Shown here: one piece after another, positions 20,797 to 25,067 of the stretch | Layout of the letters: the number at the start of each line of letters is the position of its first letter | Numbering within the stretch: the first letter of the stretch is position 1 | Source: a virus | Length of the DNA stretch: 28,150 nucleotides | Direction: 5' to 3' (one strand) | Virus record (IMG/VR): IMGVR_UViG_3300009008_000195 | Span: 1 to 28,150 of that record | Translations under genes and position numbers: made by a program | Notes under the pieces: generated by a model | What the model saw: only the letters and a program-made list of their open reading frames with translations | Told to the model about the DNA's origin: nothing | The model's database searches: none

Positions 20797-21387
20797 ATGG
20801 CGAAAGAATCATTATTTGATAAACTAGAAGCAGAGGCGTTCCGAAAAGGTTTCCAAAAGAGATCTAAGGAAGCTCAGAAATGGTTTATGCAAAAAACAAG
20901 AGATATGGGCAAGATCAATATGCATAAGATGATCAAGGACCCAAGACTTGTAAGGAAACAGAGACCTCGTATTGGCGATATGTTTATGTATCACTACGAT
21001 CCAAAACACAGAAAGACTCTCCCTTATTATGATTCGTTTCCTTTAACTATTATGGTACAAAGGGCTCCTGGTGGATTTTATGGACTGAATCTTCATTATC
21101 TGCCACTAAAGCAAAGAGCTATATTCCTCGATAGATTAACAGAAATTGCTAATAACAAAAAGTTTGATGAAACAACTAGATTGAAATTAAATTATGATTT
21201 GTTAAAAACAGCAGGGAAATATAAATATTTCAAACCTTGTTTTAAACATTATTTAACTGAACACATAGATTCTAAGATTATGAAGGTAGAAGCTTCTGAA
21301 TGGGATGTTGCAATATTCCTTCCAACAGAGAACTTTATGAAGGCTAAGAAGACTAAGGTTTGGAAAGACAGTAGGAGTAAGTGGTAA
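20797..21387 (+). CDS. Conserved T4-like phage protein of unknown function (196 aa)
   Basis: The hallmarks are RPRIGDMFMYHYDPKHRKTLPYYDSFPLTI, GGFYGLNLHYLPLKQRAIFLDRL and EASEWDVAIFLPTENFMKA. I recognise this as a protein widespread in marine T4-like phages, but I cannot assign it a T4 gene number with confidence; a structural or DNA-end-related role near gp4 has to be left open. The first 40 residues are basic and helical. There is no signal peptide or membrane segment. The ATG at 20797 has no Shine-Dalgarno sequence and sits five bases after TATAAATA. It is linked to the tube-like gene by a TAATG overlap. Confidence 0.75.
   Translation: MAKESLFDKLEAEAFRKGFQKRSKEAQKWFMQKTRDMGKINMHKMIKDPRLVRKQRPRIGDMFMYHYDPKHRKTLPYYDSFPLTIMVQRAPGGFYGLNLHYLPLKQRAIFLDRLTEIANNKKFDETTRLKLNYDLLKTAGKYKYFKPCFKHYLTEHIDSKIMKVEASEWDVAIFLPTENFMKAKKTKVWKDSRSKW
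21220..21227 (+). promoter_or_regulatory. Possible internal late box TATAAATA
   Basis: This exact match lies within the 196-residue gene (codons for YKYF), 160 bases upstream of the gp54-like ATG and in the right orientation. The amino-acid context could create it by chance. Confidence 0.3.
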
Positions 21388-22088
21388 TGATCCCAGTAGG
21401 AATAGATACACTAAAATCAACAATTGGAAAGCGTGGAGGATTAGCAAGAGCTAATCGCTTTGCAATTTACATTACCCATCCTATGATGAAAGGTCCAATG
21501 GGTAATGGACTTATTAATACTGATATTACAGGGCTTGCTTCTAATATTGGTGGATCATTATTATCAGGTGGTTCAATTGATCCTATGGCATTTATTAATG
21601 ATCCAAGAGATATGTTCTTGCTTTGTGAAAGTGTTCAACTTCCAGGTAAGAGAATTGCTACAATGGAACAGTTCGTCACCCACAAAGCGATCAAAAAACC
21701 ATACTCATATCTTGTTGATGAAGTAACATTTACATTTGTTCTAACTAATGATTATTTTGCTAGAAAATATATGGACCAATGGCAACAAATGGTAATTGAT
21801 CAAGAGGATCTAAAAGTTAATTATAAGAATGATTATGTCACAGATGTTACTATTCAACAGTTAAGTACATCTAATGATATGATTCCTGCATATAGTATCA
21901 AGCTATTGAATGCTTTCCCTATTGCAGTAAATGCAGTTGAATTATCAAACTCATCTGAAAACAGTTTATTACAATGTTCAGTAACCTTGTCATTTGATGA
22001 TTGGCAACAACAAGGTATTCTGGATGGTATAATTGATATGGTAGGACAAGCTAGTTCTATTGTTGATGCAACACGTGGATTATTTTAA
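21387..22088 (+). CDS. Tail tube initiator, gp54-like (233 aa)
   Basis: The fold pattern matches the gp54/gp19 tube family: ANRFAIYITHP near the N-terminus, LLCESVQLPGKRIATMEQF, VTFTFVLTNDYFARKYMDQWQQMV, and near the C-terminus YSIKLLNAFPIAVNAVELSNSSENSLLQCSVTLSFDDW. T4 gp54 has the same order (PENRL..., AMQDWVNSV..., TGCIPISVSAPELS...VTFAY). I chose ATG 21387, 9 bases after AGGAG, rather than GTG 21381; the ATG overlaps the upstream TAA by one base. Likely role: with gp48, the first ring on which the tail tube polymerises. A gp19 tube paralogue is the alternative; being next to gp26 and tape-measure genes favours gp54. Confidence 0.7.
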   Translation: MIPVGIDTLKSTIGKRGGLARANRFAIYITHPMMKGPMGNGLINTDITGLASNIGGSLLSGGSIDPMAFINDPRDMFLLCESVQLPGKRIATMEQFVTHKAIKKPYSYLVDEVTFTFVLTNDYFARKYMDQWQQMVIDQEDLKVNYKNDYVTDVTIQQLSTSNDMIPAYSIKLLNAFPIAVNAVELSNSSENSLLQCSVTLSFDDWQQQGILDGIIDMVGQASSIVDATRGLF

Positions 22089-22106: not shown

Positions 22107-22820
22107 ATGAATACATTACCAACGTTATCTGTACCTTCGTATAGATTAACAATCCCCTCAAGTGGGAAGGAAGTACAATTTAGACCTTATCTTGTAAAAG
22201 AAGAAAAGATCTTAATGATTGCGCAAGAGTCTACTGATGGAGATCAGATTCAAGATGCAATATTAAATGTGATTGAAAATTGCTTAATTGATTATGATGG
22301 AGATGTTAGACAGTTAACAGCATATGATGTGGAGTGGATTTTCCTTCAACTAAGAAGCAAGAGTGTAGGAGAATCAATCGATATCATTAAGTTTTGTGAT
22401 GAAGAAGATTGTGATGGAGAGACACAAATTAAGATTGATATTGGAAAGGCAATAATTAAGAACAAAGAGAAGTCTGCCAATACATCTATTAAAGTTGAAG
22501 AAGGATTGGTTGTAGAGGTTAAGTTCCCTACTATTGAATCTGGTTCTGATGTGGGAGATGATGATACAGATATTTTAATTAATACTGTAGCTAATGCATT
22601 ATCATATATTCATTATGGAGATGAGATTTATGATGCTAATGGTGTTACTATAGAAGAAAGAAGAAAGTTCGTAGAAAGTCTAACGAATGAACAATTTGGT
22701 AAGATTATTGATTTCTTACTAGATGCACCATATGTGTATTATGAAGATGAGTTTACTTGTAGTAAATGCGGAACAAAACAAACGTTTAATTATGAAGGAA
22801 TTTTAGATTTTTTTATTTAG
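22107..22820 (+). CDS. gp26: Baseplate hub / tail assembly chaperone protein, gp26-like (237 aa)
   Basis: The N-terminal half carries the T4 base-plate (gp26/gp51) family pattern: LSVPSYRLTIPSSGKEVQFRPYLVKEEKI, ILNVIENCLID, LTAYDVEWIFLQLRSKSVGE. Two cysteine pairs, C97/C102 (CDEEDC) and C218/C221 (CSKC), could bind one zinc ion. T4 gp26 (208 residues) is a hub component; in position and family this protein resembles the G-type tail assembly chaperones encoded before tape-measure genes. The zero-frame stop TAG (22818-22820) follows a run of seven T residues, and a -1 frame extension continues into the tape-measure gene. The GGAGA motif upstream of ATG 22107 is the ribosome site. Confidence 0.85.
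   Translation: MNTLPTLSVPSYRLTIPSSGKEVQFRPYLVKEEKILMIAQESTDGDQIQDAILNVIENCLIDYDGDVRQLTAYDVEWIFLQLRSKSVGESIDIIKFCDEEDCDGETQIKIDIGKAIIKNKEKSANTSIKVEEGLVVEVKFPTIESGSDVGDDDTDILINTVANALSYIHYGDEIYDANGVTIEERRKFVESLTNEQFGKIIDFLLDAPYVYYEDEFTCSKCGTKQTFNYEGILDFFI
22808..22814 (+). other. Candidate -1 ribosomal frameshift slippery heptamer
   Basis: T TTT TTT fits X XXY YYZ in the gp26-like frame (zero-frame codons TTT 22809-22811 and TTT 22812-22814), three codons before the stop. Slipping back one base re-pairs both tRNAs perfectly. A 7-bp stem (22839-22845 with 22854-22860, 8-base loop) and an outer 5-bp stem (22830-22834 with CTCAT at 22865-22869) lie downstream, but 15-24 bases away, farther than usual. 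Confidence 0.65.
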
Positions 22821-22999
22821 CTCTTTCGCATGAGGCCCTTGAGTCTTTCTATAGGCTCAATTTCTCATTGATGGAGGAGCACAAGTATAGCTTGACAGAG
22901 CTAGATAACATGGTCCCTTGGGAGCGTGAGATTTACACGAGCTTACTTATAAAGCAGATTAATGAGGACATAAAGAATGCCGAAGCAAACAACAACTAA
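22814..22999 (+). CDS. -1 frame extension of the gp26-like protein (61 codons), GT-type chaperone domain
   Basis: After the slippery run, the -1 frame reads 61 sense codons (starting TAT TTA GCT CTT) and stops at TAA 22997-22999, giving a fused product of about 297 residues. The frame has a TGA at 22793-22795 just upstream, so it cannot start before the slip site; its only internal ATG (22871) lacks a ribosome site. The extension is helical and acidic, with SHEALESFYRLNFSLMEEH and MVPWEREIYTSLLIKQI, resembling the 'W..E.Y..LL' C-termini of tail assembly chaperone T domains. It overlaps the tape-measure start by 23 bases, as lambda GT overlaps H. Inferred role: chaperone loading of tail tube subunits on the tape measure. 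Confidence 0.65.
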   Translation, partial: YLALSHEALESFYRLNFSLMEEHKYSLTELDNMVPWEREIYTSLLIKQINEDIKNAEANNN

Positions 23000-25067
23000 T
23001 TTGAATCAAGGAGGGCCGGGTCTAAAAGCGAGGGAATCAGAACGCCGAATGCAATCAAACCTTGATAGCAGTCGTAAGTCATTAAACACTCTTGAATCTA
23101 AGTTTGAAGAACTTAACAAGAATATCATTAATCTAAACCAAGTTGTAACTCAATTAAGAAATGTTGAGTTGATACAAGTTGGACATGATATGAAATCTGC
23201 CAAAGAAGACAAGAGCTTCTATATGGACAGATTACAACATGATAAGGAGTCTGAAAAAGCTGCTGATAAATCTGGGGACCACCTAGTAGAAGCAACTGCT
23301 CGACAAGAAGCAGGCCTCCGTGATATATCTAAGCGTATATCACTACTCCACTCATTCATGGCTGGGGATTCTGTAAAGCGTACGAAGGAACGACTTTCAA
23401 TATCATCTAAAGAACATACTGAACAGCTTAAAAAGCACAGATCAATTGGTATGGCTCAAATGAACTTTATGAAAGAACACGGTATTTCTAATATCGCTGG
23501 TCTTCGTAATGTGATGAAGGATGGTAAGAGGAAGTTTAGTGAAGATGATGTATTAAGATTAAGGAACGAATGGGATGATATCACTAGGAAGAAGAAACAA
23601 GATCGTGATTTTTCTACTTTAAGAGACGCATCATTAGATAAAAGATCTAAGTATAGTCATCAAGGATTAAGTCCTCAATTATTTGATAGACTAGCTGCCA
23701 AGTACTCTGATTCTGACGATCAGAAAAAGCTGTATCAATTATTTGGTAGATCTACTACTGCTGTTATGGATGGTGGTAAAGGATTTAAGGGTCTAGGTGG
23801 TTCTAACCTAGATTGTGATCCATGTGATCCCCTAAAGAACATTGATAAGAATGTTGGTGATATTCTCGATTTAATGAAAGGTAATGTTCTTGCTGATAAA
23901 GAAAAAGCAAGAGAAGCAAAGAAAGCATTAAAATTATTAGAAGATAAAAGACATAAGCAATTAGGACATACTCCTGCATTACCAGCTCCTGAAGGGGGAT
24001 CTGGAGGATTAAAAGGAGGAGCTGCTCTCCTCGGTTCTACGGTTCTTTTAGATCGTGTTAAGAAACATAGAAATACACAAAGGGGTAAGGCTAAGTCACG
24101 TGCTGAAAAAAAAGTTTTAGCAAAGAGGGAAGCTGAACGTATAGCTAAAGAAAAAGCTGAAAAGAAGGCAAGACAAAAAGCTGAAAAGGAAAAGGCGATT
24201 GAAAAGAAGAAGCAAGATCGTATAAAAGAACAGGAGCGTAAGAGAAAGGAGGCTGAGGAAAAGAAGGCAAGGGAAAAGAAGGCTGCTGAGGAAAAGAAGA
24301 AAAAGGAAAAGGAGGCAAAGGAAAAGCGGGAAAAGGAAAAGAAGGAAAAGGAAAAGCAGGCAAAGGAAAAGAAGGAAAAGCAGACAAAGGAAAAGCAAGC
24401 AAAGGAAAATAAGGCAAAGAGTCAGAAGAATGTAAAAACTCCTGAAGGTGATAAACCAGTTAAAACTAAATCAGCAACTCCTAACCCTAAAAAAGCTGCT
24501 AGTCCATCTGTTATTAAGTCATGGATAAAGAAACATTTGAAGAGCTTATCTCCATCTGCTTATAAGAATGCTAAAAATATTATAAAACTTAGACACTATG
24601 GTAAGTTAAGAGCTCTTTTAGCAGCAGGGGGTCCTGCAGGATGGGTTGCATTAGGATTATCGTTTTTAGCAGAGGCAGTATTAGTCTCTTATGCAGAAGA
24701 AGCAATAGCTGAGATTGAAGCTGAAAGAGGCCCAGAACCAACTGCTGATGACATAACAGCTTCAGATTGGGGTGAAGGTGATACAAATCCTTCAGCGGAA
24801 TCAGGTGCTATTGTAACAGGAACAAGAGGTAGAAGTCGTCCTAGAAGTATGGCTGATGGTGTTGATGCTGCTACAGCTAATATGAAAGTTGTTCAAAGTC
24901 AACCTTCTGTGCAAGGAGAGGGTAAAGAGAGCTCGAAAGGAGCTACTGTTATTAAGGATTCTAACAACACAAGTAATACATCAACTACTAATGTGTATGC
25001 TATTCCAATAAGTCCTCCTGTTGATGGTTCTAATGGTGGTTGGAACCAGATGGATCCGGGGATATAA
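22977..25067 (+). CDS. Tape-measure-like protein (696 aa), gp29 position
   Basis: The protein is long and mostly helical. Residues about 20-70 and 110-160 are predicted coiled coil (LDSSRKSLNTLESKFEELNK...). About 371-483 is an extreme Lys/Glu/Ala tract (KEKEKQAKEKKEKQ...) that should form one continuous charged helix. About 544-578 is a hydrophobic stretch (LLAAGGPAGWVALGLSFLAEA) compatible with membrane insertion during DNA ejection. The C-terminal 120 residues are Ser/Thr/Asn-rich and disordered. T4's tape measure gp29 has 590 residues. I see no sequence signature for gp29; the call rests on architecture and on position right after a chaperone-like gene. GAGGA lies 8 bases upstream of the ATG, inside the preceding frame. 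Confidence 0.65.
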   Translation: MPKQTTTNLNQGGPGLKARESERRMQSNLDSSRKSLNTLESKFEELNKNIINLNQVVTQLRNVELIQVGHDMKSAKEDKSFYMDRLQHDKESEKAADKSGDHLVEATARQEAGLRDISKRISLLHSFMAGDSVKRTKERLSISSKEHTEQLKKHRSIGMAQMNFMKEHGISNIAGLRNVMKDGKRKFSEDDVLRLRNEWDDITRKKKQDRDFSTLRDASLDKRSKYSHQGLSPQLFDRLAAKYSDSDDQKKLYQLFGRSTTAVMDGGKGFKGLGGSNLDCDPCDPLKNIDKNVGDILDLMKGNVLADKEKAREAKKALKLLEDKRHKQLGHTPALPAPEGGSGGLKGGAALLGSTVLLDRVKKHRNTQRGKAKSRAEKKVLAKREAERIAKEKAEKKARQKAEKEKAIEKKKQDRIKEQERKRKEAEEKKAREKKAAEEKKKKEKEAKEKREKEKKEKEKQAKEKKEKQTKEKQAKENKAKSQKNVKTPEGDKPVKTKSATPNPKKAASPSVIKSWIKKHLKSLSPSAYKNAKNIIKLRHYGKLRALLAAGGPAGWVALGLSFLAEAVLVSYAEEAIAEIEAERGPEPTADDITASDWGEGDTNPSAESGAIVTGTRGRSRPRSMADGVDAATANMKVVQSQPSVQGEGKESSKGATVIKDSNNTSNTSTTNVYAIPISPPVDGSNGGWNQMDPGI

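Follow-up and report, generated by a model that had tools for sequence, protein, structure and literature searches.

A gp26-family gene of a marine T4-like phage very probably encodes a lambda G/GT-like tail assembly chaperone pair by -1 ribosomal frameshifting

Introduction

Does a T4-like phage gene that ends in a run of T, with an open -1 frame behind it, encode one protein or two? The question is raised by a gp26-family gene in the window, by which we mean the whole 28,150-nt stretch of DNA that was analysed (IMG/VR record IMGVR_UViG_3300009008_000195). Tail assembly chaperones of T4-like phages have reportedly been treated by Vladimirov, Gautam and Davidson (2022, Virology 566:9-15). A sequence-only reading of the window had proposed a programmed -1 frameshift, with the gp26-family protein as the G part of a pair analogous to lambda G/GT, and all three elements of that proposal were supported by our comparative tests. 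We conclude that the window gene very probably encodes a lambda G/GT-like tail assembly chaperone pair via -1 ribosomal frameshifting.

A gp26-family gene with a slippery 3' end

The gp26-family gene (22107-22820, frame 0, + strand, as are all window features described here) encodes a 237-aa protein, the TAC-N or 'G' product. In profile searches this protein matched PF12322 (T4_baseplate) at 1.9e-50, with a score of 172 bits against a curated cut-off of 24.5 and with profile positions 2-218 of 219 covered, and it matched phrog_150 at 9.7e-56. The 3' end of the ORF reads ATT TTA GAT TTT TTT ATT TAG and holds the slippery heptamer T TTT TTT (22808-22814), 3 nt 5' of the frame-0 stop TAG (22818-22820). 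Upstream of the slip the -1 frame is closed by TGA 22793-22795; past it runs the -1 extension, or 'T' part (22814-22999), of 61 codons and TAA (22997-22999), and its 3' end overlaps the ATG of the downstream gene at 22977. The ORF, heptamer, TGA, 61 codons, TAA and overlapping ATG were all found where the sequence-only reading had placed them.

Under the mechanism that we propose, most ribosomes would terminate at TAG 22818 and release the 237-aa form, like lambda gpG, and a minority would shift into the -1 frame at T TTT TTT and so translate the gp51-like extension. The slipped product would be a fusion of 297 aa (236 + 61), the TAC-NC, like gpGT, sharing its N-terminus with the 237-aa form.

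The extension and the two genes of T4

The extension alone matched the gp51 family phrog_634 ('baseplate hub assembly catalyst') at 1.5e-23, and phrog_150 is covered almost completely by the fused window protein; the extension is therefore not a chance open frame. Its predicted fold is three helices (AlphaFold2, pLDDT 87). By homology, the extension corresponds to the C-terminal portion of T4 gp51; other records annotate the extension as a gene of its own, named 'baseplate hub assembly catalyst'.

T4 itself provides a natural control. Its genes 26 and 51 are divergent, and PF12322 matches both products (gp26, 8.8e-64; gp51, 3.9e-52). T4 gp51 is a single ORF with the gp26 domain and the extension in one frame (phrog_634, 1.2e-23); since this one ORF matches both the gp26 domain and the extension family, the two parts belong to one polypeptide. 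T4 and its close relatives encode the short form (gp26) and the long form (gp51) as two homologous genes. T4 gp26 ends in Gly-Leu-Lys-Glu-Phe-Phe, and the T4-type gp26 genes surveyed (n = 12) end in the same region. None of the 12 carries the slip heptamer, the equivalent site reading TTC TTT, TTC TTC, TTT GTT or others. Retention of the heptamer is thus confined to genes whose extension is in a different frame. The sequence-only reading had noted that T4 is not known to be described as having such a frameshift; the pair itself is present in T4, as genes 26 and 51. The window record is a virus fragment of 28 kb with a single PF12322 match, and the T4-type arrangement of a short gp26 plus an in-frame long gp51 is absent from that fragment. 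One T4-type gp51 (L108, 3001-3746) was considered as a case of recoding and rejected: its interruption lies mid-gene, not at the chaperone junction, and is probably a sequencing error or decay.

Conservation of the -1 frame and the slip site

In the first round, the extension lay in the -1 frame in all 80 IMG/VR relatives. Later rounds were seeded with T4 gp51, L048, Cronobacter S13, Dickeya Coodle and S-CAM1, named phages were added, and the full survey placed the extension in the -1 frame in 213/213 frameshift-type loci, a count that leaves out the Streptococcus GXN1 locus (extension in the +1 frame) and whose members are not independent (121 extension clusters at 90% nucleotide identity). 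The sequence-only reading would have been refuted by homologues with many stops in the -1 frame, or by synonymous divergence across that frame; instead, both other frames contain stops across the extension in all 208 measured loci, and substitutions at -1-frame codon positions 1, 2 and 3 number 318, 113 and 824 (60 disjoint close pairs). The closest pairs (11 pairs, pS < 0.4) gave pN/pS of 0.00-0.43, with eight at <=0.15. For the window itself, the extension shares 84% amino acid identity with that of contig L004, with 30 substitutions at third positions against 10 at positions 1 and 2. The extension evolves as a -1-frame protein, and the same arrangement is under purifying selection in > 200 loci.

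The slip site, which the sequence-only reading had proposed to check in marine T4-like relatives, is conserved as well. Among 47 representatives (outside Ackermannviridae, below 85% amino acid identity), all 47 have two Phe codons written TTT TTT or TTT TTC after a codon that ends in T. TTT TTY is kept even in phages that use TTT for a minority of their Phe codons (phiM12, 0.15; OLIVR6, 0.25; S13, 0.25; D490, 0.22). Judged by codon usage within these genes, such retention has a probability of about 1e-10 at the first Phe codon and 1e-11 at the NNT before it, figures that treat lineages as independent and are hence overstated. Slip sites in Ackermannviridae are NATTTTC, GGTTTTC or GGCTTTC. Three loci of that family (L094, L096 and L097) have GGTTTTC, GGCTTTC and AATTTTC, yet retain the -1 extension. 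Two-frame coding and its conservation, the slip site and the homology with gp26 and gp51 are thus established as far as sequence comparison reaches.

It might be argued that the extension is a separate small gene (gp51) with its own start codon, coupled to the gp26 stop. Separate 'baseplate hub assembly catalyst' genes are indeed annotated publicly in P-SSM2, HTVC008M, Mosig, phiM12 and KVP40, and in 56 of 208 loci an ATG follows the gp26 stop by no more than two codons, which makes coupled initiation possible in those phages. However, many loci have no extension-frame ATG until codon 10 or later, and the first start-like codons of the -1 frame in the window are TTG 22868 and ATG 22871, from which initiation would remove most of the first predicted helix (H6-23) and conserved residues (A4). 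Also against a separate gene, both parts share one ORF in T4 gp51, S-CAM1 and Cronobacter S13 carry the extension with no gene annotated there, and the slip site is retained far beyond codon-usage expectation. We consider a separately initiated gp51 improbable.

Slightly less probable still is an origin of the fusion in transcription, with RNA polymerase slipping on the T run. Runs of T can slip in transcription, and the run in the window is seven T long. At 124 surveyed loci, however, the slip site has only six T and then C, and in Ackermannviridae the run is down to three or four T. The conserved feature is the X XXY YYZ register ahead of the frame-0 stop, and in the window clade a predicted hairpin lies 5 nt downstream. 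We infer that it is the ribosome, and not the polymerase, that slips; among the papers searched, none was found to report ribosome profiling of cyanophage infection. An assembly error or a decayed gene, for which we found nothing in favour, has a negligible probability, given the > 200 loci with the same arrangement under selection and given that the T run and stop, where a sequencing correction had been a concern, are identical in three other contigs (L001-L003), of which L001 differs from the window by 6 bases and L002 by none over about 4 kb.

Candidate stimulators of the frameshift

The predicted hairpin, a candidate stimulator of the -1 slip, spans 22820-22880 and begins 5 nt after the heptamer. 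Its outer helix is predicted to pair 22820-22835 with 22863-22880, and its inner helix 22839-22846 with 22853-22860. The folding energy of 22815-22900 is -30.4 kcal/mol (z -3.75; 0 of 200 shuffles as stable), and the hairpin region keeps a z of -3.1 against synonymous-codon shuffles that preserve the -1 protein and codon usage. Across six clade members the outer helix is 85% paired, with changes that are mostly one-sided. Covariation in the window clade is weak: three pairs show a double change, and 34 of 500 shuffles reach the same. Over the 47 representatives the 60 nt after the slip have a mean z of -1.1, with the strongest values in the window clade and a few others, and a search for a family-wide consensus RNA structure on 34 sequences found none. 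It is possible, and we think probable, that the hairpin raises the slip rate in the window clade. Upstream of the slip, a search for a Shine-Dalgarno-like stimulator gave z 0.0 for the window and a mean z of -0.43 for the 47 representatives; since a conserved Gly codon explains most of this, any such effect is at most weak.

Neighbouring genes, predicted fold and function

Directly upstream of gp26 lies a gene for a tail-tube-like protein (21381-22088; phrog_45 tail tube, 2.6e-32), whose match to PF06841 (1.4e-5) is below the cut-off. The downstream gene (22977-25067; 696 aa), which the sequence-only reading took for the tape measure gene, fits that role in position, size and composition: its protein is Lys/Glu/Ala-rich, and its hydropathy includes a hydrophobic C-terminal segment near residue 550. 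Against this, profile searches gave no family match and hhalign gave no match with T4 gp29. It is plausible, on position and composition, that this gene encodes a putative tape measure protein.

In other genomes the tape measure is annotated one or two genes downstream (HTVC008M, SP-15 and LIS04), and the homologue in Thornevirus SP-15 and LIS04 is flanked by annotated genes for the tail tube and the tape measure, which is the canonical chaperone position. In the Ackermannviridae phages phiMAM1 and Coodle, a gp5-type lysozyme, and not a tape measure, is annotated as the next large gene. In many marine relatives (L013, L031, L084, L088, L090) a gene of ~100-140 aa separates the extension from the large putative tape measure gene. 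Several of these proteins start with an EF-hand-loop-like HPADTNGDGKVS(x)EE motif.

The AlphaFold2 model of window gp26 has a mean pLDDT of 89. In Foldseek comparison with PDB structures, the HK97 tail assembly chaperone 2ob9 was the clearest match by probability (0.90 and 0.84), at E-values of 0.5-1.0; none reached <=0.001, and several unrelated structures had lower E-values at low probability. The top hits, to GTP cyclohydrolase IB, were rejected as spurious (probability <=0.13, rmsd about 20), and a search of solved structures by sequence found no relative. The modelled likeness to the HK97 chaperone is suggestive only. A chaperone role for gp26 and its extension we infer from family, position and analogy with lambda. 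By that analogy, the shared domain may coat the tape measure protein, the extension may recruit tail tube subunits, and the long-to-short ratio would be low.

Distribution and origin

The frameshift form was found in Kyanoviridae, Ackermannviridae, several unclassified genera and some Straboviridae (KVP40, S13), with Emdodecavirus and Menderavirus among the genera, and the two-gene form only in T4-type phages. In a 41-row unrooted tree, full support was obtained for a single group of T4-type gp26 and a single group of T4-type gp51, the latter on a long stem, and the frameshift genes cluster with support 71/68. The distribution favours an ancestral frameshift, as the sequence-only reading had suggested, and a derived duplication, an order on which the unrooted gene tree does not decide.

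At locus L048 (2992-4592), a normal frameshift gp26 gene has directly behind it another gp26-like gene, a short one (232 aa) with neither slip site nor extension. A viral scan found no second contig with this tandem, which is a possible intermediate toward the T4 two-gene arrangement.

An extension in the +1 (or -2) frame was observed in L230 (2170-2440; Bacillus SP-15), L231 (2160-2450; Listeria LIS04) and L098 (3170-3500; Streptococcus GXN1). NCC CGA TTY is common to the three, just 5' of the frame-0 stop, and their extension matched the gp51-like extension profile (hhalign E 6e-6, probability 85%), which suggests +1 frameshifting in the same family. We put at about even odds the broader reading of one chaperone family with three routes, namely -1 poly-T slippage (T4-like phages and Ackermannviridae), two genes (T4 and close relatives) and a +1/-2 shift (Thornevirus-like SP-15, LIS04 and GXN1), with the L048 tandem as a possible route from frameshift to two genes. 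T4-type and marine phages, set side by side, become a natural experiment in which recoding is replaced by gene duplication.

Comparison with known systems

The lambda slip site is GGGAAAG and that of the window a poly-T heptamer, and lambda gpG is shorter than gp26 by about 100 aa. Lambda G/GT and P2 E/E+E' (Levin 1993; Christie 2002; Xu 2004), likened to the window by arrangement, resemble it in pairing a short chaperone with a -1-extended one, in the slip near the 3' end and in the position before the tape measure gene (putative in the window). Likened to the window by its description in PMC12846349, the TAC of Vandenendeviridae and Andersonviridae (Pseudomonas phage Adele; GTTTTT slip motif) is a contractile-tailed phage chaperone with a -1 frameshift at a short poly-T. 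Its extension, too, is there said to have been annotated as a gene, a hypothetical one.

Sullivan et al. 2010 (PMC3037559) noted that cyanophage and marine vibriophage gp51 lacks the first ~200 aa of other gp51 proteins, and a search of the main text of that paper for mention of a frameshift found none. On our reading, the 'missing' 200 aa of cyanophage gp51 are encoded upstream, in the gp26 frame, to which the slip joins the extension, so a 'gp51' that is ~200 aa too short and separately annotated is explained as the frameshift tail of gp26. For abundant marine phages, the annotation of many public genomes should be revised accordingly. An annotation gap between gp26 and the next gene coincides with the extension in L091 (3230-3400; Cronobacter S13) and in L083 (4706-4893; S-CAM1). 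For T4, gp51, an essential protein described as of unknown function, gains a testable role as the long chaperone form.

The claim for the window is not new in kind, because the T4-like chaperones were published in 2022, and papers that cite Vladimirov et al. 2022 indicate that a frameshift in T4-like phages was already reported there. One of these attributes to that work that some T4-like phages have a short gene and a fused long gene in place of frameshifting (PRFect, PMC10885494), and another that TAC-N genes of T4-like phages are known to contain poly-T slippery sequences (PMC12846349). Going by these citing papers and our own tests, the chaperones concerned (gp26, gp51) are of the same families as those of the window (PF12322, phrog_150, phrog_634). 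Possibly new are the +1-frame version in Gram-positive Thornevirus phages and the tandem extra short copy in one locus. What the window contributes beyond the published T4-like chaperones is a marine lineage, represented by metagenomes only, whose hairpin is clade-specific.
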